Shown here: piece by piece, positions 38,446 to 48,899 of the stretch | How the letters are laid out: each line of letters starts with the position of its first letter | Position numbering within the stretch: the stretch's first letter is position 1 | Assembly: GCA_016778895.1 (NCBI GenBank) | Contig: JADHOR010000011.1 | Location: 1 to 58,352, forward strand | Source of the DNA: Candidatus Puniceispirillum sp. | GTDB lineage: Bacteria > Pseudomonadota > Alphaproteobacteria > Puniceispirillales > Puniceispirillaceae | Reading direction: 5' to 3' | DNA: 58,352 nucleotides | Program-made: the position numbers and the translations under genes | Notes under the pieces: model-generated | What the model was told of the DNA's origin: nothing | Seen by the model: only the letters and a program-made list of their open reading frames with translations | Databases searched by the model: none

Positions 38446-38548
38446 GCTGGCCTCGGTGATTAGGATTGATATAACAATATGTAAATAGCTTGGATCGGTA
38501 CATAATAATCGACCATCGAATCTAACCGCATAATAGGCATTGGACGAC

Positions 38549-39694
38549 ATGCGCGCAGCATTTATCTTTCACATAATCACAGAAATTAGCCACCATTCCA
38601 GAATGCTGGTTTTTATCGCGCTCGTTTTATTCATAGGCCACCCGGTTCTGGCAGCAAACAAGCGCTGCAGCGAACCAGTATTCGGCGTTGCCGGCGTCAA
38701 GGTTGATCAGCGCGCAGAAACTGCGTCGATTGCGCGTGATGTTGGCGTGCGGGATGCCGCCGAGCGCGCCTTTGCAACAGTGCTTGATCGGGTGTTGCCT
38801 GCGGCAGCAGGGACGGCGCAGTTTTTGGCAACACATGATCTCGATAATTTTTCCGATTTCACGCATATCGTCGAGGAGAATAATCTGGAGCAGCGCTACA
38901 TTGCGACATTAGATTTCTGTTTTGACGCGACGCGGCTGCGACAAGCAATGATTAACGCGAATTTGCAATGGTCGGAATTATACAGCCCTCCTATTTTGGT
39001 AATCCCGGTCTGGAAAGGTCCGGATGGCGCGCGCGCGTGGTACAAGGGTAATCAGTGGCTGTCTGGCTGGTGGGATCAGGTGGTCTCTTATCGTGGATTG
39101 CTGTCACTTCGCCAGCTTGACCGGAGTTTAATAAATGAACGGCGGTTTCGCGGTGAGGATCTGAATGAGGCCAATCCGGCGAAATTGGCTGCCGCCGCCA
39201 GCGAGGTCAAAGCTGAGCAGATTATGCTGGTTACGGCCTTGCTTGATTATGAGTGGTCAAAGCCGGTGATTACAATTACAGCGCGCCTCTTTGACAAAAA
39301 TGGTCAGTTGTTGACCGACATTCTCTCAGGCGATGAGTTGCTGCTAACCGATGTCGCGCCGGAGAATCTAGACAATATGCGTCAGAAAATTATTGCCAAG
39401 CTGGACGCAAGCTGGCACTCGGCAAACCTGATTGATGGCAAAAGCATTGGCAACCTAAATGTTTTTGTGCCGGTAACATCGGTAAAGGAGTGGGCTAGCC
39501 GGCTTACTGCGCTGAACGAGGTCGCGGTCATTCAGAGCTATCAGATCTTGTCGATTGATGTTTCGGGTGGGCGGGTTCTGCTACGCCTTGCCGGATCGCG
39601 TGGGGCGTTGGAAAATGCGCTGTCAGCGCACAGGTTGCAGCTTGTGGATGATAATGGCCGCTTGTTGATCAATGCCAAGCCAAAAACCAGCTAG
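38549..39694 (+). CDS. DUF2066 domain protein, secreted
   Basis: A hydrophobic segment (MLVFIALVLFIGHPVLA) acts as signal peptide, followed by a region that matches DUF2066 proteins: VRDAAERAFATVLDRVLP, YIATLDFCFDATRLRQAM, PPILVIPVWKGPDGARAWYK. The family is periplasmic, of unknown function, and usually sits divergent from purM and upstream of the hda gene, exactly as here. The start is uncertain (ATG 38549 used; TTG 38540 and ATG 38603 possible). Confidence 0.8.
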   Translation: MRAAFIFHIITEISHHSRMLVFIALVLFIGHPVLAANKRCSEPVFGVAGVKVDQRAETASIARDVGVRDAAERAFATVLDRVLPAAAGTAQFLATHDLDNFSDFTHIVEENNLEQRYIATLDFCFDATRLRQAMINANLQWSELYSPPILVIPVWKGPDGARAWYKGNQWLSGWWDQVVSYRGLLSLRQLDRSLINERRFRGEDLNEANPAKLAAAASEVKAEQIMLVTALLDYEWSKPVITITARLFDKNGQLLTDILSGDELLLTDVAPENLDNMRQKIIAKLDASWHSANLIDGKSIGNLNVFVPVTSVKEWASRLTALNEVAVIQSYQILSIDVSGGRVLLRLAGSRGALENALSAHRLQLVDDNGRLLINAKPKTS

Positions 39695-39711: not shown

Positions 39712-40374
39712 ATGAAACAATTGCCCCTTGAATTACCGTTTCGCCAGGTGGCCGGCCGGGCTGATTTTATTGTCAGTGATTGCAACGCGCTGGCGCTTGC
39801 CTCAATTGATCAATGGCCTGAATGGCCGGGCAGTTGCCGTGCCTTAAATCTGGTAGGCCCATCGGGTGCGGGAAAATCGCATCTTGCGGCAGTCTGGCAG
39901 GCAATGCTTGAAACCAGTCATCATTTTTCTGGGGTGAGGGCAGGCCAGATACCGCCTGAACCGGCATTTTATGTGCTTGATAATATCACTGCCACTGATG
40001 CGTGGGATGAAGAAGCGCTATTTCATTTTTTCAACCGCTCGGCTGCAGACAATGGCGGATTACTGCTGCTTTCGCAAATACCGGTTGGGCAGATGGAATG
40101 GCGATTGCCGGATTTGCGGTCACGAATGCGGGCGGTAAATATTGCGCAGATTGATTTGCCGGATGATGATCTTCTTTATGCGCTACTGGACAAATATTTT
40201 ACCGATCGGCAAATGCTGGCACCACCGGCGTTGCTGGCCTACCTTGTGGGGCGCATGGAAAGGTCTTTTCACGCGGTGAGAACGGTTGCTAGCGCGCTCG
40301 ATCGGCGTTCAATCGCGGAGCATAGGCCGCTATCGGTTGCGCTGGCAAGGGGGGTTTTTGACGATTTAGCCTAG
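39712..40374 (+). CDS. hda: DnaA regulatory inactivator (Hda/HdaA-like)
   Basis: 220-residue DnaA-like AAA+ protein without the DNA-binding domain of DnaA. The N-terminus KQLPLELPF fits the beta-clamp-binding motif of Hda. NLVGPSGAGKSHLAAVW is the Walker A box, FYVLDNITATDAWDEE the Walker B area, and DLRSRMRAVNIAQI the sensor region. With the clamp it promotes hydrolysis of DnaA-ATP after initiation. Its stop TAG overlaps the rnd stop (CTAG, 40371-40374). Confidence 0.88.
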   Translation: MKQLPLELPFRQVAGRADFIVSDCNALALASIDQWPEWPGSCRALNLVGPSGAGKSHLAAVWQAMLETSHHFSGVRAGQIPPEPAFYVLDNITATDAWDEEALFHFFNRSAADNGGLLLLSQIPVGQMEWRLPDLRSRMRAVNIAQIDLPDDDLLYALLDKYFTDRQMLAPPALLAYLVGRMERSFHAVRTVASALDRRSIAEHRPLSVALARGVFDDLA

Positions 40375-41576
40375 CTGGTATTTTCAATCAGCATAATCCG
40401 GCCATTTTTAACCGCCAGGGCAATCTCGCCCTGTTTCAGCCGTAACGCCAGATCACCAAAAACCTCCCGGCGCCAACCTGTTAACGCCCGGACAGGCGCA
40501 TTATCGTCACCCGCCAGTAATTCCAGTTCTTCCGCTGAGGCGATCAGACGCGGTGCGATATCATGCTTGTCGGTGACATGTTTTAACAACACCCTCAGCA
40601 ATTCCATTACGGCCGCTTGGGGGCGGTTGGCTGGCCCGCGTTTTTCGGCGGGGGGAAGTGCCGATCCGGGCAGCGCAGCAACGTTGGCCAATATCTTGCT
40701 GATCGGTTCGACTAGCTTGCCGTCCTTGCCGCCGGGAAAATTGCGGATATTAGCAAAATCCTTGCGTTCTTTGGGATTTGAGCCGGCGAGATCAATCAAT
40801 GTTTCGTCGCGGACAATGCGGTTGCGTGGCAAATCGCGGTTCTGCGCCTCGGTCTCGCGCCATGCGGCCAGATGCATCAACCGCAGCAATGCAGCAGGGC
40901 GCATATTTCGGATTTTCAGCTTTTGCCACGCGCTATCGGGTGCGGTGACATAGGTCGCCGGGTCATTCGATTTGGCATATTCTTCATCCAGCCAACGGCT
41001 GCGTTTTTCGCGCTCCAGCTTGCTGCGCATCAACGGGTATAATTTCGCCAGAAAGATCACATCATCAAGCGCATAAAGGATTTGCCGGTTACTCAATGGG
41101 CGTTTTGACCAGTCGGTAAACCGTGAAGTCTTGTCAATGTCGTGGTTCAGCATGGCCTTGACCAGCTTGTCATAGCCGACCTGATCACCCAGCCCGCAAA
41201 CCATTGCGGCAATCTGGGTGTCGTAAATCGGCTCTGGCAGACTGCCCATCAGGTGTAAAAATATCTCCATATCCTGATTGCCGGCATGAAACACTTTGGT
41301 GATTGTGGGGTTGCGCATTAGATCCCAGAGCGGATTGAGATCAAGATTGGTTGCCAGCGGGTCAATCGCTACTGCGTCAATGCCATCGCTGATCTGGATA
41401 AGACATAGTTGCGGGTAATAGGTGCGCTCGCGCAGGAATTCTGTATCCACAGCCAGAAATTCGGCGGATTGATATTGTTTGATTATCCTGCTGAGGGCAT
41501 CATTCGTGGTGATTGGCTGTACCACTTTCGTTGATTTGGCATCATCGTTGCCGGCTTGGCTAACATGTCGTTTCAT
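40371..41576 (-). CDS. rnd: Ribonuclease D
   Basis: 3'-5' exonuclease that trims tRNAs and other stable RNAs. The DEDD catalytic motifs are visible: LAVDTEFLRERTYYPQL (DxE), VFHAGNQDMEIFLHLMG (the second Asp) and a YALDDVIFLAKLYPLM region (the last Asp). HRDC-type helices follow with WRETEAQNRDLPRNRIVRDE. 401 residues from ATG 41576 with GAGG upstream; an in-frame codon at 41612 lacks such support. Confidence 0.93.
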   Translation of the reverse strand: MKRHVSQAGNDDAKSTKVVQPITTNDALSRIIKQYQSAEFLAVDTEFLRERTYYPQLCLIQISDGIDAVAIDPLATNLDLNPLWDLMRNPTITKVFHAGNQDMEIFLHLMGSLPEPIYDTQIAAMVCGLGDQVGYDKLVKAMLNHDIDKTSRFTDWSKRPLSNRQILYALDDVIFLAKLYPLMRSKLEREKRSRWLDEEYAKSNDPATYVTAPDSAWQKLKIRNMRPAALLRLMHLAAWRETEAQNRDLPRNRIVRDETLIDLAGSNPKERKDFANIRNFPGGKDGKLVEPISKILANVAALPGSALPPAEKRGPANRPQAAVMELLRVLLKHVTDKHDIAPRLIASAEELELLAGDDNAPVRALTGWRREVFGDLALRLKQGEIALAVKNGRIMLIENTS

Positions 41577-41674
41577 CAAATACCTCGATTCGTCCCCGAT
41601 CATATACGGCAAAAAGCGGCGTACTGAAAGGCAAACCTATTGATTTCGCTTTACGGCCCCCCTAAATCTAAAGA

Positions 41675-42534: not shown

Positions 42535-43434
42535 TTAAGACCGGTCGGCGGCAAAGCAGGCGGCGCCTTTGGCAAGGGTAAATTCATCCTGACCGGCTTT
42601 TCGTAGTTTTGTCTTGCTACGTTCAACCAGAAGATAGCCCGGCCATTTGCGCGGCAAGGTCTGATAAAGCCGCTCCAGATTTGCCAGCCGCCCGCCCAGA
42701 ATGATCACATCTGGATCAAACATATTAATGATTGTCGCTGTGGTACGGCCAAGGCGGTCGTCAAGCACTTGCAAGACGTTCGCCGCGACCAGATCGCTGG
42801 CATTGGCAGCCGCCGAAATGGCCTGAATATCAAGCCGGGTTTGGGTAATTGTGTGATATTCGTTTTCCAGTCCACTAAGCGATAAAAAACAATCAATACA
42901 ACCGTTTCGCCCACACCAGCAATCGCGCCCGTCAAGTTCATGCGGCACCGGCCACGCCAATGGCATATGCCCCCAAGCACCAACAATACGGTTCGCCCCG
43001 CGCCATAGGTTTTCACCAAATGTCACCCCACCAAAAACATGACTGTCGAGATAGAGCGAGCACGCGACACCGCAGTTTTTAGCCACGCCAAAACGGCTTT
43101 CATAGAGGGCAAGAGCCTGTCCCGGGCTTACTAGTGCAACTGGCCGTCCGAGGCTGGCTTGTAGGTTTGATCTAAGATCGGTGCCGATTAGACATTTAAG
43201 GCCGTCAGGCGGGCTTGGCTGGCCGGTAAAGCCGCCTTGTGTCGAGACGGCAATCTTTTCGGACAGGCCGGGATGGGCGGTATGAGCATGTTTGCTGATG
43301 TCGCTGCAAACCGCCAGCAGGCAGCCTATCTTGTCCCGCTCAAGCGCATAGCTGTTCTGCCAAACAAAATCACCGCCATCGATAAGGATGGCGGTGTTAA
43401 CAACGCAATTTTCAATGGAAAGTCCTAGATGCAT
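42535..43434 (-). CDS. ROK-family protein, active site degraded
   Basis: The C-terminal half is clearly ROK: WRGANRIVGAWGHMPLAW, then the zinc motif CWCGRNGCIDCFLS (His156, Cys172, Cys174, Cys179) and INMFDPDVIILGGRLANLE. ROK members are sugar kinases or repressors. Key kinase residues are absent: the N-terminal phosphate loop (DxGGTK type) reads GLSIENCVVNTAIL; the catalytic NDAN reads SPGQ (103-106); the GTGVGGG loop reads LDSHVFGG; and the Glu before WGH is Ala. There is no DNA-binding domain. It is probably not an active kinase. The reading frame is intact (299 residues). Confidence 0.8.
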   Translation of the reverse strand: MHLGLSIENCVVNTAILIDGGDFVWQNSYALERDKIGCLLAVCSDISKHAHTAHPGLSEKIAVSTQGGFTGQPSPPDGLKCLIGTDLRSNLQASLGRPVALVSPGQALALYESRFGVAKNCGVACSLYLDSHVFGGVTFGENLWRGANRIVGAWGHMPLAWPVPHELDGRDCWCGRNGCIDCFLSLSGLENEYHTITQTRLDIQAISAAANASDLVAANVLQVLDDRLGRTTATIINMFDPDVIILGGRLANLERLYQTLPRKWPGYLLVERSKTKLRKAGQDEFTLAKGAACFAADRS

Positions 43435-43728: not shown

Positions 43729-46068
43729 TCAACGTCTTTTTCGTTTCGCGGTTTTACCTTTTCCAGCACTTTGCCCGCCATTGCTGGGCTTTGACCGCAC
43801 ACGCCCGGATGGTTTGTTACGGCGTTTGCCAGCGTGCTCATGTGGCGCCTTAGGTCTATGTCTTGAAGATTTGCCGCGCGGCGTGTCGCTTTGCAGACCG
43901 CCATCGACCCATTCCAAAAGAATGCCGCCCGATATTGGTGTGACTTCAGTGACCTTGACCTTTAACGGCGTGCCAACGACAAATCGCCAGCCATTGTGCC
44001 TGCCGTCTAGCGACTGTGTTTCTTCGACAAAATCATAATAATCATCGGGAAGAGCATTGATCGCTAGTAAACCGTCGGCAGCCCCATCCTCTAGTCGGAT
44101 AAAGGCGCCAAATCCGGTGACGGCAACAATTGTTCCTTCAACGACGACGCCAAGCCGCGATTCAAACAATGCTGCGGCAAAACGGTCAATGGTTCGGCGC
44201 TCGGCTGCTGCTGCTGTGGTCTCGGTTTCGGAAATATGCGTGCAAATTTCGGCAATCGCATCAAGTGGCAGGCCATTTAGCCCGTCTTTCGGACCAGTTT
44301 TCTTGCCCGCCGCTGCATCAACCAGCGCGCGATGCACCAGCAAATCTGCATAGCGCCGAATTGGCGAAGTGAAATGCGCGTAATTACGCAATGACAGGCC
44401 AAAATGGCCAATGTTGTCAATGCTATAGACAGCTTTTGCCTGACTGCGAAGCACGGCTTCATTTACCGTCAGCGCATCCGGCGTGTTTTCGGCTAGGGCG
44501 ATAATCTTGTTGAAGTGATGCGGGCGTAGTACCTGTCCGGTGGTAAATTTCCCGCCAACAGACTCGGCTAGCTTGGCAAGGCTGGCGGCCTTTTTCGGGT
44601 CAGGCGTGTCATGTATGCGAAAAACACACGGGCGGCGGCTGGCGATCAGGCTATCGGCGGCTGCAACATTGGCGGCGATCATAAAATCTTCGATTAGCCT
44701 TTGCGACTCGATCTGCGATCGCTGGGTAATCGCAACAGGGTGGCCAGCATCATCCATGACAACGCGGCGTTCTTTCAGGTTCAGTGCCAGCGGTTCACGG
44801 CTTTGGCGATCGATATCAAGTGCGCGCCATGCACCGAACAATGCGTGAAGGCATCCGTGCGGCACGTCACAATCCGCCTCGTCGATGGTGCCATCAAAAA
44901 CGGCCTGGACCTGATCATAGGTCAGGCGCGCATGCGAGCGGATAAGCGCTCGTTCAATATGATGGGAAAAACGCTTACCGTCCTTGTCGATGTGAATTTC
45001 GGCAACCATCGCGGCGCGGTCTTCCCCCGGTCGCAGCGAACATAAATCGTTGGAGATTGCCTCGGGAAGCATCGGCACAACACGGTCAGGAAGATAGACC
45101 GAGTTTCCACGTTTGCGCGCCTCGATATCCAGTGCGCTGTCTAGCCTGACATAATGCGAGACATCGGCAATCGCAACCAGCAAACGCCAGCCCCCATGAT
45201 CAGTAGGTTCGGCGAAAACGGCATCGTCAAAATCACGCGCATCCGCACCATCAATCGTGACCAGCGGCTGATCCCGCAGGTCGCGGCGGCCTTTTAGGGG
45301 CGGAATTTTCAAGCCTTTTGACTCCTCAATGGCGGCGTCGGGAAATTGATGTCGGATTCCAAATTCGGCAAGGGCAAGGGCGCTAAAGGCACCGGCAGAT
45401 GACGCCGAGCCCAGATTGGTGATGACCCGGGCTGTTTTGCCGATATAGCCACGTGACGGCAGTAACTCTGCCTCGATAAGGTCACCGGCATGAAGTGGCA
45501 ACCCGTCGGTTGTTTGTAAACCAATGCTATCACGCTTGCCCCGATCAGCCGGCTGTAGGCGAAACCCTTTACCAGCGGACGTAACAACCCCGAACAGGCG
45601 CTTTTGCCGGCGGTCAAGAACACGGATGATGCGCGCCTCATAGTTATCCGGGCCAACCCGTGTTAGGCGGGCTAACACCTGTTGGCCAACCGATGGGGCG
45701 CGGCCGGCGCGCCGGTTCAAGATTACCCGGATTTCCGGCGGGTTTTCGCTGTCATTGCCTGCCCGACGGGCCAGACCATCACCATCATCATCAAAACTGA
45801 TCAGCTCAAGCACGGTAACTTCGGGCAGAGTATCAGGCGCGGCAATGGCGCGGTGATCTCCGGCCAGCAAACCCCTTTGTGACATGTTGCGCAGTGACCG
45901 GCGTACCGAGGCACGGGCGTCCTGTCCAATGTTAAAGGCGCGGGTGATATCGCGAAGACTTGGCGGCACTGGACAGCTGTTGATGTAATCAAGCAACATT
46001 GCCTCATCAGGCAAAGTAACTGCGCTGGGCGATTGATCGGGGCGGTTTTCACCCTTTTTACGCGCCAT
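43729..46068 (-). CDS. rnr: Ribonuclease R
   Basis: 779-residue processive 3'-5' exoribonuclease. An N-terminal winged helix (SLRDITRAFNIG) is followed by cold-shock-type domains and the RNB catalytic domain (TIDGADARDFDDAVFAEP, GNSVYLPDRVVPMLPEAISN, YAHFTSPIRRYADLLVHRAL). An S1 domain follows (VVEGTIVAVTGFGAFIRLED), and a basic Arg/Lys-rich tail of about 45 residues ends it. The ATG directly follows the topA stop (TAG-ATG), so the two are surely cotranscribed. Confidence 0.95.
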   Translation of the reverse strand: MARKKGENRPDQSPSAVTLPDEAMLLDYINSCPVPPSLRDITRAFNIGQDARASVRRSLRNMSQRGLLAGDHRAIAAPDTLPEVTVLELISFDDDGDGLARRAGNDSENPPEIRVILNRRAGRAPSVGQQVLARLTRVGPDNYEARIIRVLDRRQKRLFGVVTSAGKGFRLQPADRGKRDSIGLQTTDGLPLHAGDLIEAELLPSRGYIGKTARVITNLGSASSAGAFSALALAEFGIRHQFPDAAIEESKGLKIPPLKGRRDLRDQPLVTIDGADARDFDDAVFAEPTDHGGWRLLVAIADVSHYVRLDSALDIEARKRGNSVYLPDRVVPMLPEAISNDLCSLRPGEDRAAMVAEIHIDKDGKRFSHHIERALIRSHARLTYDQVQAVFDGTIDEADCDVPHGCLHALFGAWRALDIDRQSREPLALNLKERRVVMDDAGHPVAITQRSQIESQRLIEDFMIAANVAAADSLIASRRPCVFRIHDTPDPKKAASLAKLAESVGGKFTTGQVLRPHHFNKIIALAENTPDALTVNEAVLRSQAKAVYSIDNIGHFGLSLRNYAHFTSPIRRYADLLVHRALVDAAAGKKTGPKDGLNGLPLDAIAEICTHISETETTAAAAERRTIDRFAAALFESRLGVVVEGTIVAVTGFGAFIRLEDGAADGLLAINALPDDYYDFVEETQSLDGRHNGWRFVVGTPLKVKVTEVTPISGGILLEWVDGGLQSDTPRGKSSRHRPKAPHEHAGKRRNKPSGRVRSKPSNGGQSAGKGKTAKRKRR

Positions 46069-48720
46069 CTAGCTCGCTTTCCGCTTTGCAATTGCCTTTT
46101 TAGCCACAGCTTTTTTAGACTCGGCTTTTTTGGTCACAGCCTTTTTCGACGCGGCCTTTTTGGCAGTGGCTTTTTTAGACGCGGCTTTTTTGGCAGCAGG
46201 CTTTTTAGCCGGGCCCTTGGCTGCCTTGGCAGCTAGCAGCTCAAGCGCCGTTTCCAGAGAGATGTCAGCGATGTCATGCGCCTTGCCGAGGTTGGCCCGG
46301 AGCTTGTTATGCTCGACATAGGGGCCGAACCTGCCTTTCTTGACATGAACCTCGCCGCCATCTGGGTGTGTGCCAAGCAGACGGCCGGCCTTTTTGGCAG
46401 CGTCAGCCAGCAGGTCAACCGCGCGGTTAATCCCAATTTCGAGAACATGATCTTCCGGCGGAAGGCTGGTGAATTTACCCTGATATTTCAGATAAGGGCC
46501 AAAGCGGCCAAGGCCTACCTGAATCATATCACCGGTTTCGGGGTGCGGCTCAATATCACGTGGCAATGCCAGTAGCCCAAGTGCCGCTTCCAGATCCAGA
46601 TTTGCCGCGCTGGTGCCTTTTGGCAATGACGCACGCTTCGGTTTGCTGGTTTCCGGATCGCCGATCTGCACATAGGGGCCATAAGGGCCGTTACGCAAAT
46701 AAACCGGCATATTAGAAGCAGGGTCAATCCCCAGTTCCTTATCGGTGACGGGTGTGCTGCCATCGGCACTGTCATTCTGGCTCGTCAACTGGCGGGTAAA
46801 TTTACATTCTGGATAGTTTGAGCAGCCAACAAAGGCGCCAAATTTTCCAAGTTTTAGCCCCAAACGGCCACTGTCACAATTCGGGCAGTTTCGCTTGAGC
46901 ACACCCGTTTCATCCGCCTGAAAGAAATGTGGCCCTAGCTCTTCATCAAGAACATCAAGCACATTGGTGATGGTCAAGCCCTTGGTGCCGTCAATTGCAG
47001 CTTTGAAATCGCCCCAGAATTGCGCCAGAAGTGTCTTCCAATCAAGCGTTCCTGCCGAAACTTCATCAAGCTGCGATTCGAGCTGGGCGGTAAAATCATA
47101 CTCAACATAGCGGTCAAAGAAATTGCCCAGAAACGTTGAAACCAACCGGCCACGATCCTCAGGAACAAATCGGCCCTTATCCTTAACCACATAATTACGG
47201 TTCTGCAGTACCTGAATGATTGACGCGTAGGTCGACGGCCGTCCAATGCCCAACTCTTCCATACGTTTGACCAGGCTTGCATCAGTAAAGCGCGGTGGTG
47301 GCTGGGTAAAATGCTGTTCTGGCATGACCTTGTTTGTTGTTAGCAGATCGCCCTTTGCCATGCTTGGCAGCAGCGCGGTATCGTCGTCGCTGTCGCCATT
47401 CGCTTGCTGGCCATTTTCTTGTACGGTATCCTTGCTTTCACGGTAAACCGACAAAAACCCGTCGAACACCATCACCTGACCACTCGCCCGCAAGGAAACT
47501 CCGTCAGCAGCATCACCAATATCAATGCCGGTCTGATCAAGTTCGGCCGATTGCATCTGGCTGGCAATTGCGCGTTTCCAGATCAACTCATACAGCCGGA
47601 ACTGGTCATGATCCAGAAACGCCTGCATATCGTCGGGGTGACGGGTGATTTCGGTTGGACGGATGGCTTCATGGGCTTCTTGGGCATTGGCGGCCTTGGT
47701 TTTGTAGATGCGTGGTGCATCTGGCAGGTAACGCTTGCCGTAACGCTGATCGATATTCTGCCGGATCGAGGCGATAGCCTCGCCGCCAAGCTGGACACCA
47801 TCGGTACGCATATAGGTGATTAAACCGGTTGTTTCGCTGCCAATATTAATGCCTTCATAGAGTTTTTGGGCGATTTGCATTGTGCGGCTCGCTGAAAATC
47901 CTAGCTTGCGTGATGCCTCTTGTTGCAATGTAGAGGTTGTGAAAGGTGGCTGAGGGTTGCGGCGCACACGCTTGGTCTCAACCGACTGAACGGCGAGCGT
48001 GGCCGCCGAGATAGTCGCGACGGCGGCATTGGCTTCGGCTTCGGTTTTAATGTCCAGCTTGCCAAGTTTGGTGCCGTTAAGGTGGGTAAGGCGTGCGGTA
48101 AATTGATCACCGCTGGCCAGCTCAAGCGCGGTTTCAACGCTCCAATATTCTTGCGAAACAAAGGCCTCAATTTCGGCCTCGCGCTCACAGATTAGACGAA
48201 GCGCAACCGACTGTACCCGTCCGGCAGATTTTGACCCGGGTAATTTACGCCACAGAACTGGCGAAATTGAAAAACCGACAAGATAGTCAAGCGCCCGCCG
48301 CGCCCGGTAAGCATTGATCAATTCAGTATCAAGCTGGCGCGGTTTTTCCATCGCCGACAGAATTGCGTTTTTCGTGACCTCGTTAAAGACTACCCGTTCG
48401 ACGTCAACCCCGTTTAAGTGCTTGGTATTTTTTAACTGTTCCAGAACGTGCCAGCTAATCGCCTCACCCTCGCGGTCAGGGTCAGTCGCGAGGATCAGCT
48501 TGTCTGCACCCTGCAGCGCGACAACAATATCTTTGAGATGTTTTTCAGAACCGCTGGAAATCTGCCATTTCATTTCGAAATCATTGTCAGGCAGCACGGA
48601 TCCATCCTTGCTTGGCAGATCGCAAACATGACCATAAGAGGCAAGCACCTTGTATCCATCACCGAGGTAACGGTTAATGGTCTTGGCCTTGGCTGGAGAT
48701 TCGACAACGACGACTTTCAT
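46069..48720 (-). CDS. topA: DNA topoisomerase I
   Basis: 883-residue type IA enzyme relaxing negative supercoils. The Toprim domain (VVVVESPAKAKTINRYLGDG, ATDPDREGEAISWHV) comes first. The catalytic Tyr is in GLITYMRTDGVQL (about residue 303). A C4 zinc ribbon follows (CPNCDSGRLGLK with CSNYPEC), then several topoisomerase C-terminal repeats with the KxGRFGPYV pattern. The last 45 or so residues are a Lys/Ala repeat tail (KKAxxKKAxSKKA). Start ATG 48720 with AGGGAC upstream; GTG 48723 is adjacent. dprA usually precedes it and is decayed here. Confidence 0.96.
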   Translation of the reverse strand: MKVVVVESPAKAKTINRYLGDGYKVLASYGHVCDLPSKDGSVLPDNDFEMKWQISSGSEKHLKDIVVALQGADKLILATDPDREGEAISWHVLEQLKNTKHLNGVDVERVVFNEVTKNAILSAMEKPRQLDTELINAYRARRALDYLVGFSISPVLWRKLPGSKSAGRVQSVALRLICEREAEIEAFVSQEYWSVETALELASGDQFTARLTHLNGTKLGKLDIKTEAEANAAVATISAATLAVQSVETKRVRRNPQPPFTTSTLQQEASRKLGFSASRTMQIAQKLYEGINIGSETTGLITYMRTDGVQLGGEAIASIRQNIDQRYGKRYLPDAPRIYKTKAANAQEAHEAIRPTEITRHPDDMQAFLDHDQFRLYELIWKRAIASQMQSAELDQTGIDIGDAADGVSLRASGQVMVFDGFLSVYRESKDTVQENGQQANGDSDDDTALLPSMAKGDLLTTNKVMPEQHFTQPPPRFTDASLVKRMEELGIGRPSTYASIIQVLQNRNYVVKDKGRFVPEDRGRLVSTFLGNFFDRYVEYDFTAQLESQLDEVSAGTLDWKTLLAQFWGDFKAAIDGTKGLTITNVLDVLDEELGPHFFQADETGVLKRNCPNCDSGRLGLKLGKFGAFVGCSNYPECKFTRQLTSQNDSADGSTPVTDKELGIDPASNMPVYLRNGPYGPYVQIGDPETSKPKRASLPKGTSAANLDLEAALGLLALPRDIEPHPETGDMIQVGLGRFGPYLKYQGKFTSLPPEDHVLEIGINRAVDLLADAAKKAGRLLGTHPDGGEVHVKKGRFGPYVEHNKLRANLGKAHDIADISLETALELLAAKAAKGPAKKPAAKKAASKKATAKKAASKKAVTKKAESKKAVAKKAIAKRKAS
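46081..46210. repeat. Degenerate codon repeats encoding the TopA lysine-rich tail
   Basis: The 3' end of topA is made of imperfect repeats of a short unit (plus strand GCCTTTTTNGNC type, for example around 46140, 46155, 46170, 46185), encoding successive (A/S/T)KKA blocks. It is low-complexity sequence that can expand or shrink by slippage. Confidence 0.6.
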
Positions 48721-48899
48721 CACTTGTCCCTACTATCGCGTGAAGGGCTTGCGATAAAGCCAAAAGTTGGATTTGTCAAAATTTCTGATGGTTTTTTTAT
48801 AAATTAACCGGTTTTAGGGATATTTTCGCTAATTTGCTTGGCGGGTTTCTGACAAGGCGAGTTCGGTATTTTGATTACGCGCCCTGACCAGGCTGCCGG

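Follow-up and report, generated by a model that had tools for sequence, protein, structure and literature searches.

A ROK-family protein of SAR116 bacteria with degenerate catalytic motifs, a retained zinc site and a conserved place beside rpmG

RESULTS

Gene content of the locus

The window that we analysed is a stretch of 58,352 nucleotides from Candidatus Puniceispirillum sp. (contig JADHOR010000011.1), of the SAR116 group of marine alphaproteobacteria, which live in the ocean. Positions 42535–43434 carry, on the minus strand, an intact reading frame for a ROK protein of 299 residues (P0001), whose start Met is common to seven close relatives. The rpmG gene, encoding ribosomal protein L33 (43470–43637, minus strand), lies directly upstream, and since the ROK gene starts 35 nt past the rpmG stop on the same strand, the two are likely to be transcribed together. 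Beyond rpmG, and also on the minus strand, follow rnr (43729–46068), identified as RNase R by its RNB and S1 domains, and topA (46069–48723). On the other side, an EipB-like gene (PF08904; 41675–42526, plus strand) converges on the ROK gene and is followed by an rnd-like gene for a 3'-5' exonuclease with an HRDC domain (40371–41612, minus strand), both of them conserved neighbours.

The PF00480 profile matches residues 85–296 of P0001 with an E-value of 1.7e-34 and 120.2 bits, above its gathering cut-off of 22.9. This bears out the family and the coordinates given in an earlier note on this DNA, the strand being minus. As the match is limited to these residues, the C-terminal two thirds of the protein are clearly ROK, while the N-lobe has diverged below recognition by the profile. 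Among NCBIfam models the best is the Mak-type fructokinase NF007108, at 133 bits against a curated cut-off of 443; two intact SAR116 orthologues reach 349–359 bits and also stay below that cut-off. Among proteins of solved structure, those nearest to it in sequence are ROK kinases of GlcNAc, matching at 7e-21 or weaker. The earlier note had also held that the fold is kept; this is predicted from sequence profiles only, and an AlphaFold2 model from an alignment of P0001 with seven close relatives reached a mean pLDDT of only 41.

Loss of the phosphotransfer motifs and retention of the zinc site

We aligned P0001 with 35 intact Mak-type ROK proteins, E. coli Mak included. The first phosphate loop (residues 4–13; 43396–43425, minus strand, as are all motifs below) reads GLSIENCVVN instead of GIDLGGTKxE, so that D-x-G-G-T-K, whose D, G, G, T and K are invariant in the 35 proteins, has become S-I-E-N-C-V. 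SPGQ (residues 103–106; 43117–43128) replaces NDAN: the invariant N-D-A is S-P-G, with Pro104 at the position of the catalytic Asp. In the second phosphate loop (residues 128–137; 43024–43053), YLDSHVFGGV stands for IxGTGxGGGx and D-S-H-V-F for G-T-G-x-G. The sugar-binding Glu of GExGH is Ala153 in the sequence GAWGH (residues 152–156; 42967–42981), where ExGH now reads AWGH and the zinc ligand His156 is retained. The roles of these residues and of the phosphotransfer motifs are those described in excerpts of PMC2742894 and, for the latter, also of PMC5458393.

Regarding the zinc site, the motif CWCGRNGC (residues 172–179; 42898–42921) is preserved, and none of the four ligands (H156, C172, C174 and C179) is missing. 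Residue 181, a Glu that follows the cysteines of the zinc site, has changed to Asp, and P0001 still fits the ROK family motif GHx(n)CxCGxxGCx(E/D), as defined in excerpts of PMC2742894 and PMC5458393. Its spacing of 15 residues between GH and the first C exceeds the 9–11 given for GNE in these excerpts.

The earlier note had thus read correctly the loss of both phosphate loops, of the catalytic Asp and of the sugar-binding Glu, together with the survival of the zinc motif. The losses are not due to chance, because they recur at the same sites in orthologues; the presence of the same changes in other genomes also rejects an assembly or sequencing artefact. Its proposal of a pseudokinase is supported by sequence, and the orthologues revealed a second, separate pseudokinase group that lay beyond what its author could see. 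A live ROK partner steered by a dead paralogue was rejected for the window's genome, which has a single PF00480 match at E 0.001.

Degenerate and intact orthologues across the order

A search of 121 genomes gave matches at 1e-5 or below in 65, although in G014, G057 and G059 the match was to a distant ROK only. We label the window's SAR116 family f1 and its genus g1; f2, f3 and f4 are other families, and no f4 genome was among those with a ROK match. The closest relatives were found at eight named loci, of which seven go under Candidatus Puniceispirillum, SAR116 or Alphaproteobacteria; the eighth, with a broken copy, goes under Gammaproteobacteria. Before counting motifs we dropped copies truncated at contig ends (L013/L079 and L071), broken copies (L068 and L039), seven loci taken as repeat genomes by their matching scores (L032–L038) and the distant ROK proteins L072–L078; another distant ROK, L122, was kept out of the intact group.

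In f1 this left 33 full-length degenerate orthologues, distributed over six genera (11 in g1, 8 in g2, 1 in g6, 3 in g8, 8 in g10 and 2 in g4), and intact ones in g3 (2), g7 (10) and g11 (1). The gene is intact in f2 (9 rows) and f3 (4 rows), and all the listed motifs are present in 26 of 26 intact orthologues of the order. Among the 33 degenerate proteins neither loop 1 nor loop 2 is intact in any, though loop 1 of the g6 row still has its Asp and a single Gly. Glu153 survives in one of them and Glu181 in 19, while the zinc His and three Cys are found in all 33. The catalytic Asp separates the genera: it is retained in 0 of 23 proteins from g1, g2, g6 and g8, versus 6 of 10 from g10 and g4. 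Exact SPGQ occurs only in g1, in 10 of the 11 full-length rows, the remaining one reading APAQ; the five further genera carry other degenerate forms. P0001 shares about 31–43% identity with the proteins of these other five genera.

Outside the order, 32 distinct genes retained the Asp, both loops and the Glu, with the loop-1 Thr replaced by Ser in three. This sample is not random: it comprises the best-scoring 25 against P0001 among 156 genomes with matches (385 searched) and 8 more chosen by PF00480 score, giving 33 rows for 32 genes since L116 and L150 are one gene; L134, a repeat of a g10 row, was left out.

As to the surroundings of the gene, rpmG is directly upstream of all 33 degenerate and all 26 intact orthologues (59 of 59), and the EipB-like gene is directly downstream and convergent in 33/33 degenerate and 16/26 intact loci. 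The ten intact loci lacking it as an adjacent gene are those of nine f2 genomes and one contig end (g11); in the five f2 loci read further it appears about 1.3 kb farther on. Contig ends apart, most of the 35 long loci also have topA, rnr and rnd in their flanks; rnr had no match in the two f3 loci. Even in other alphaproteobacteria, an intact ROK gene lies a few kilobases from rpmG and/or the EipB-like gene in six of the eight loci read (L114, L115, L116, L117, L120 and L121, not L118 or L119). The shared setting of rpmG and the EipB-like gene identifies these genes as positional orthologues, and hence indicates that catalysis was lost in place.

What the degenerate proteins conserve

Divergence is unevenly spread along the protein. 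In six degenerate pairs between genera, the identity of the C-lobe (0.47–0.60) exceeded that of the N-lobe (0.25–0.42) in every case, and in six intact pairs between genera the margin was smaller (58–70% against 50–62%). Most of the columns that 85% or more of the 33 degenerate proteins have in common fall in the C-lobe: the zinc site, a helix with R227 and R230, the DP at 240–241, and PRKWPGY (residues 261–267; 42634–42654), a C-lobe motif of the window's SAR116 family whose KWP is retained in 33/33. Many intact f1 orthologues have the helix as well, and PRKWPGY or something close to it, so both are inherited rather than new. In FnNanK, a ROK protein of solved structure, the C-lobe is the dimerisation domain, given as residues 126–268 in an excerpt of PMC5458393. 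The conservation of the C-lobe thus suggests a dimer stabilised by zinc whose task would be older than the catalytic loss, but it may also have a purely structural reason.

Alternatively, the protein could be a ligand sensor whose remodelled cleft still binds a sugar, a sugar phosphate or a nucleotide and so alters the contact between the dimer and a partner, in the manner of Mlc and NagC but lacking the DNA-binding domain of these two. The retained zinc site and GH histidine would suit such a sensor, and these two regulators illustrate that ROK proteins can regulate (excerpts of PMC12696579). We nevertheless find this reading somewhat doubtful, since four of the five positions that contact sugar in human GNE according to excerpts of PMC2742894 (N, D and both E), located here by aligning the motifs, are changed in P0001, and the cleft residues vary among the pseudokinase genera, so that no common new pocket is visible.

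One loss of catalysis or two

Trees were built with FastTree and, for 23 taxa, under a mixture model. The tree of five flanking genes (2661 columns; three of the 23 taxa with under half of the columns filled) separates a clade of g1, g2, g6 and g8 from a second one, in which g10 and g4 stand with the intact g3, g7 and g11; it has one long branch, and four rows are of uneven composition. A single clade of all pseudokinase bearers had a log-likelihood lower by 134.75 and was rejected (p-AU 1.43e-8). As the flanking genes reject that clade, the most likely course is that catalysis was lost twice, each time in place.

The ROK gene tree, on the other hand, unites both pseudokinase groups (support 0.998), and continues to do so after removal of the motif columns (support 93, unstarred), as expected if catalysis had been lost once in the family and the locus then transferred between genera. 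Such a transfer seems unlikely to us. The flanking genes that reject the union belong to the same loci; the ROK alignment without motif columns fails to reject the species-tree arrangement (p-AU 0.134); and the degenerate motifs differ by group, the Asp surviving in 6 of 10 proteins of the second, which is expected for separate decay. Shared relaxed columns and fast branches can draw the two groups together in the ROK tree.

Purifying selection and loss of the gene

The earlier note had proposed to look for homologues with SPGQ-type changes under purifying selection, and these were found. By the Nei-Gojobori method, dN/dS was 0.047–0.197 in 17 degenerate pairs and 0.032–0.151 in 7 intact pairs, so purifying selection on the degenerate gene is shown at the level of sequence. 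When the window is compared with the closest relative that has long flanks, the ROK gene gives 0.12, near the 0.14 of the EipB-like gene and the 0.10 of both rnd and rnr, and higher than the 0.07 of topA. In g1 and g8 it evolves much like the EipB-like gene and rnr nearby; in g10 and g4 it is faster than its neighbours (0.16–0.21 versus 0.04–0.13).

Besides, some genomes have lost the gene or are losing it. In a congener (G009, contig 3; L129 5092–5560), ROK has gone cleanly from between rpmG and the EipB-like gene, and we detected no remnant in the approximately 470 bp that separate them; the pseudokinase is therefore dispensable in at least one congener. The locus also lacks ROK in G063 and G067; in the former, an f4 genome, rpmG adjoins the EipB-like gene directly. 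In G019 the EipB-like gene has a different neighbour. Two broken copies were found as well: that of G030 (contig 7; L068), decaying within the pseudokinase genus g8, contains in-frame stops, and L039 2876–3696 (PBQQ01000077) is a SAR116-type pseudokinase copy with internal stops, whose record bears the title of a gammaproteobacterial MAG and is probably a mis-binned contig.

Hence, one could argue that the protein is a slow relic, functionless since Glk made it redundant and persisting through a tight locus and short time. The clean loss in G009, the ROK-less loci of G063 and G067, the internal stops in the G030 and L039 copies, the divergence of the N-lobe and the faster rates in g10 and g4 all fit this. 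We judge it quite improbable in view of the 33 open, full-length frames in six genera at identities as low as those given above, the dN/dS values of 0.05–0.20 (similar in g1 and g8 to those of the EipB-like gene and rnr), and the zinc ligands and KWP kept in every one of the 33. Very improbable is an altered enzyme using another phosphoryl donor or reaction through new catalytic residues, for although SPGQ and LDxHVxGGVTFG are nearly invariant in g1, these positions are unconserved in the other pseudokinase genera, and no Asp, Glu, His or Lys occurs among the columns that both groups conserve in a form unlike the intact consensus.

Glucokinase is complementary to intact ROK in the window's family

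Of the 36 f1 genomes whose ROK is degenerate (the 33 full-length cases plus G001, G008 and G030, whose copies are truncated or broken), 28 have the glucokinase Glk (PF02685), against none of the 13 whose ROK is intact. Restricted to genomes of 90% completeness and above, these numbers were 17 of 18 and 0 of 8. Fisher's test gives p values of 8e-7 for all f1 genomes and 6e-6 for those at least 90% complete, both overstated because kinship is ignored and there are about two independent contrasts. Glk was also present in all four genomes read with a ROK-less locus (G009, G019, G063 and G067). PF02685 had no match in the window's own genome (G000, 99.6% complete), whose sole ROK is the dead one, nor in 7 further degenerate-ROK genomes (57–80% complete).

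In f2 and f3, Glk accompanies an intact ROK in 6 of 13 genomes (G061, G078, G086, G062, G065 and G068), so Glk alone does not bring about the loss. This co-occurrence would allow an ancestor with both genes, and the pattern in f1 suggests that the redundancy of two hexokinases was resolved there by reciprocal loss. The Glk tree, in which row L173 is in the wrong frame, follows the genera in part and mixes families in part, and we draw no conclusion from it. When we compared the 16 kb around Glk in G004 with the window's genome, 4.2 kb matched at 98% identity near the low end of contig C15, possibly an rRNA operon. PfkB (PF00294), considered as a replacement kinase, was uninformative, as it is present in 16 of 16 genomes tested.

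DISCUSSION

On balance, we consider P0001 to be a kinase-dead descendant of a Mak-type ROK enzyme that was converted in place, is stabilised by zinc and is kept for a non-catalytic role. That the role is non-catalytic and that the protein is dimeric are each probable. The ancestor would have had both a Mak-type ROK hexokinase, fructokinase-like, and Glk. Lineages that kept Glk may then have lost the need for ROK activity, and the ROK protein would have stayed because its zinc-stabilised C-lobe already carried a second, non-catalytic job. The present protein, probably expressed together with rpmG, could serve as a dimeric scaffold or regulator that works through a protein partner and without ATP hydrolysis. 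Of the products of the locus, L33 and RNase R would be candidate partners; the EipB-like protein is probably periplasmic and hence an unlikely one. More tentatively, we propose that at least two Glk-keeping lineages independently turned ROK into a pseudokinase that keeps only its earlier moonlighting task at the rpmG locus. The earlier note had suggested a sensory or structural role. A role of this kind is consistent with the data, though one congener at least does without the gene; no ligand, partner or regulated gene for P0001 was found in this sequence analysis.

Pseudokinases and pseudo-hexokinases are proteins that retain a kinase fold under selection after catalysis has been lost. To our knowledge, no ROK-family pseudokinase without a DNA-binding domain has been described. 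The literature that we searched, which leaves most subscription journals outside, yielded no ROK-family pseudokinase or pseudoenzyme, and neither a SAR116 fructokinase nor a treatment of the ROK family in Puniceispirillum. The nearest known relative is the Mak-type fructokinase: E. coli Mak belongs to the same family, its model NF007108 is the best NCBIfam match of P0001, and it groups with the intact relatives in the ROK gene tree. Unlike Mak, P0001 has two degenerate phosphate loops and has lost the catalytic Asp and the Glu of ExGH.

NagC and Mlc are ROK proteins with a regulatory role that carry a DNA-binding motif (excerpts of PMC12696579). P0001 differs from them in having no N-terminal extension ahead of the kinase fold, with whose first strand it begins, and models of the NagC/Mlc type score 59 and 64 bits on it, below the 133 of Mak. 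A DNA-binding regulator was rejected, as the strand of loop 1 starts within the first residues and the conserved start Met is residue 1. Closer in architecture is GlkA of Streptomyces coelicolor, a ROK kinase without a DNA-binding domain and with a role in carbon catabolite repression (excerpts of PMC11356490); GlkA is an active enzyme, which P0001 is predicted not to be.

A bare ROK kinase that has lost catalysis and yet stays under selection would be new with respect to the ROK repressors armed with DNA-binding domains in the literature searched. Sister genera that carry the gene at one locus, intact in some and dead in others, offer a clean comparison, in which the function common to both would be the non-catalytic one, and the complementary Glk of f1 suggests why catalysis could go. 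If our reading is right, this natural pair of replicates would reveal a hidden moonlighting function of bacterial ROK kinases.

Two minor observations concern the neighbourhood. Positions 38540–39694 of the window encode a protein of 384 residues that gave no Pfam or NCBIfam match; it is a conserved neighbour, with hdaA and purM next to it at many of the order's loci. In f2 loci such as L132 (6264–7622), about 1.3 kb separate the ROK slot from the EipB-like gene; in G067, which has a spacer of this type and no ROK, the frame between the slot and the EipB-like gene is one that we take to resemble radA.
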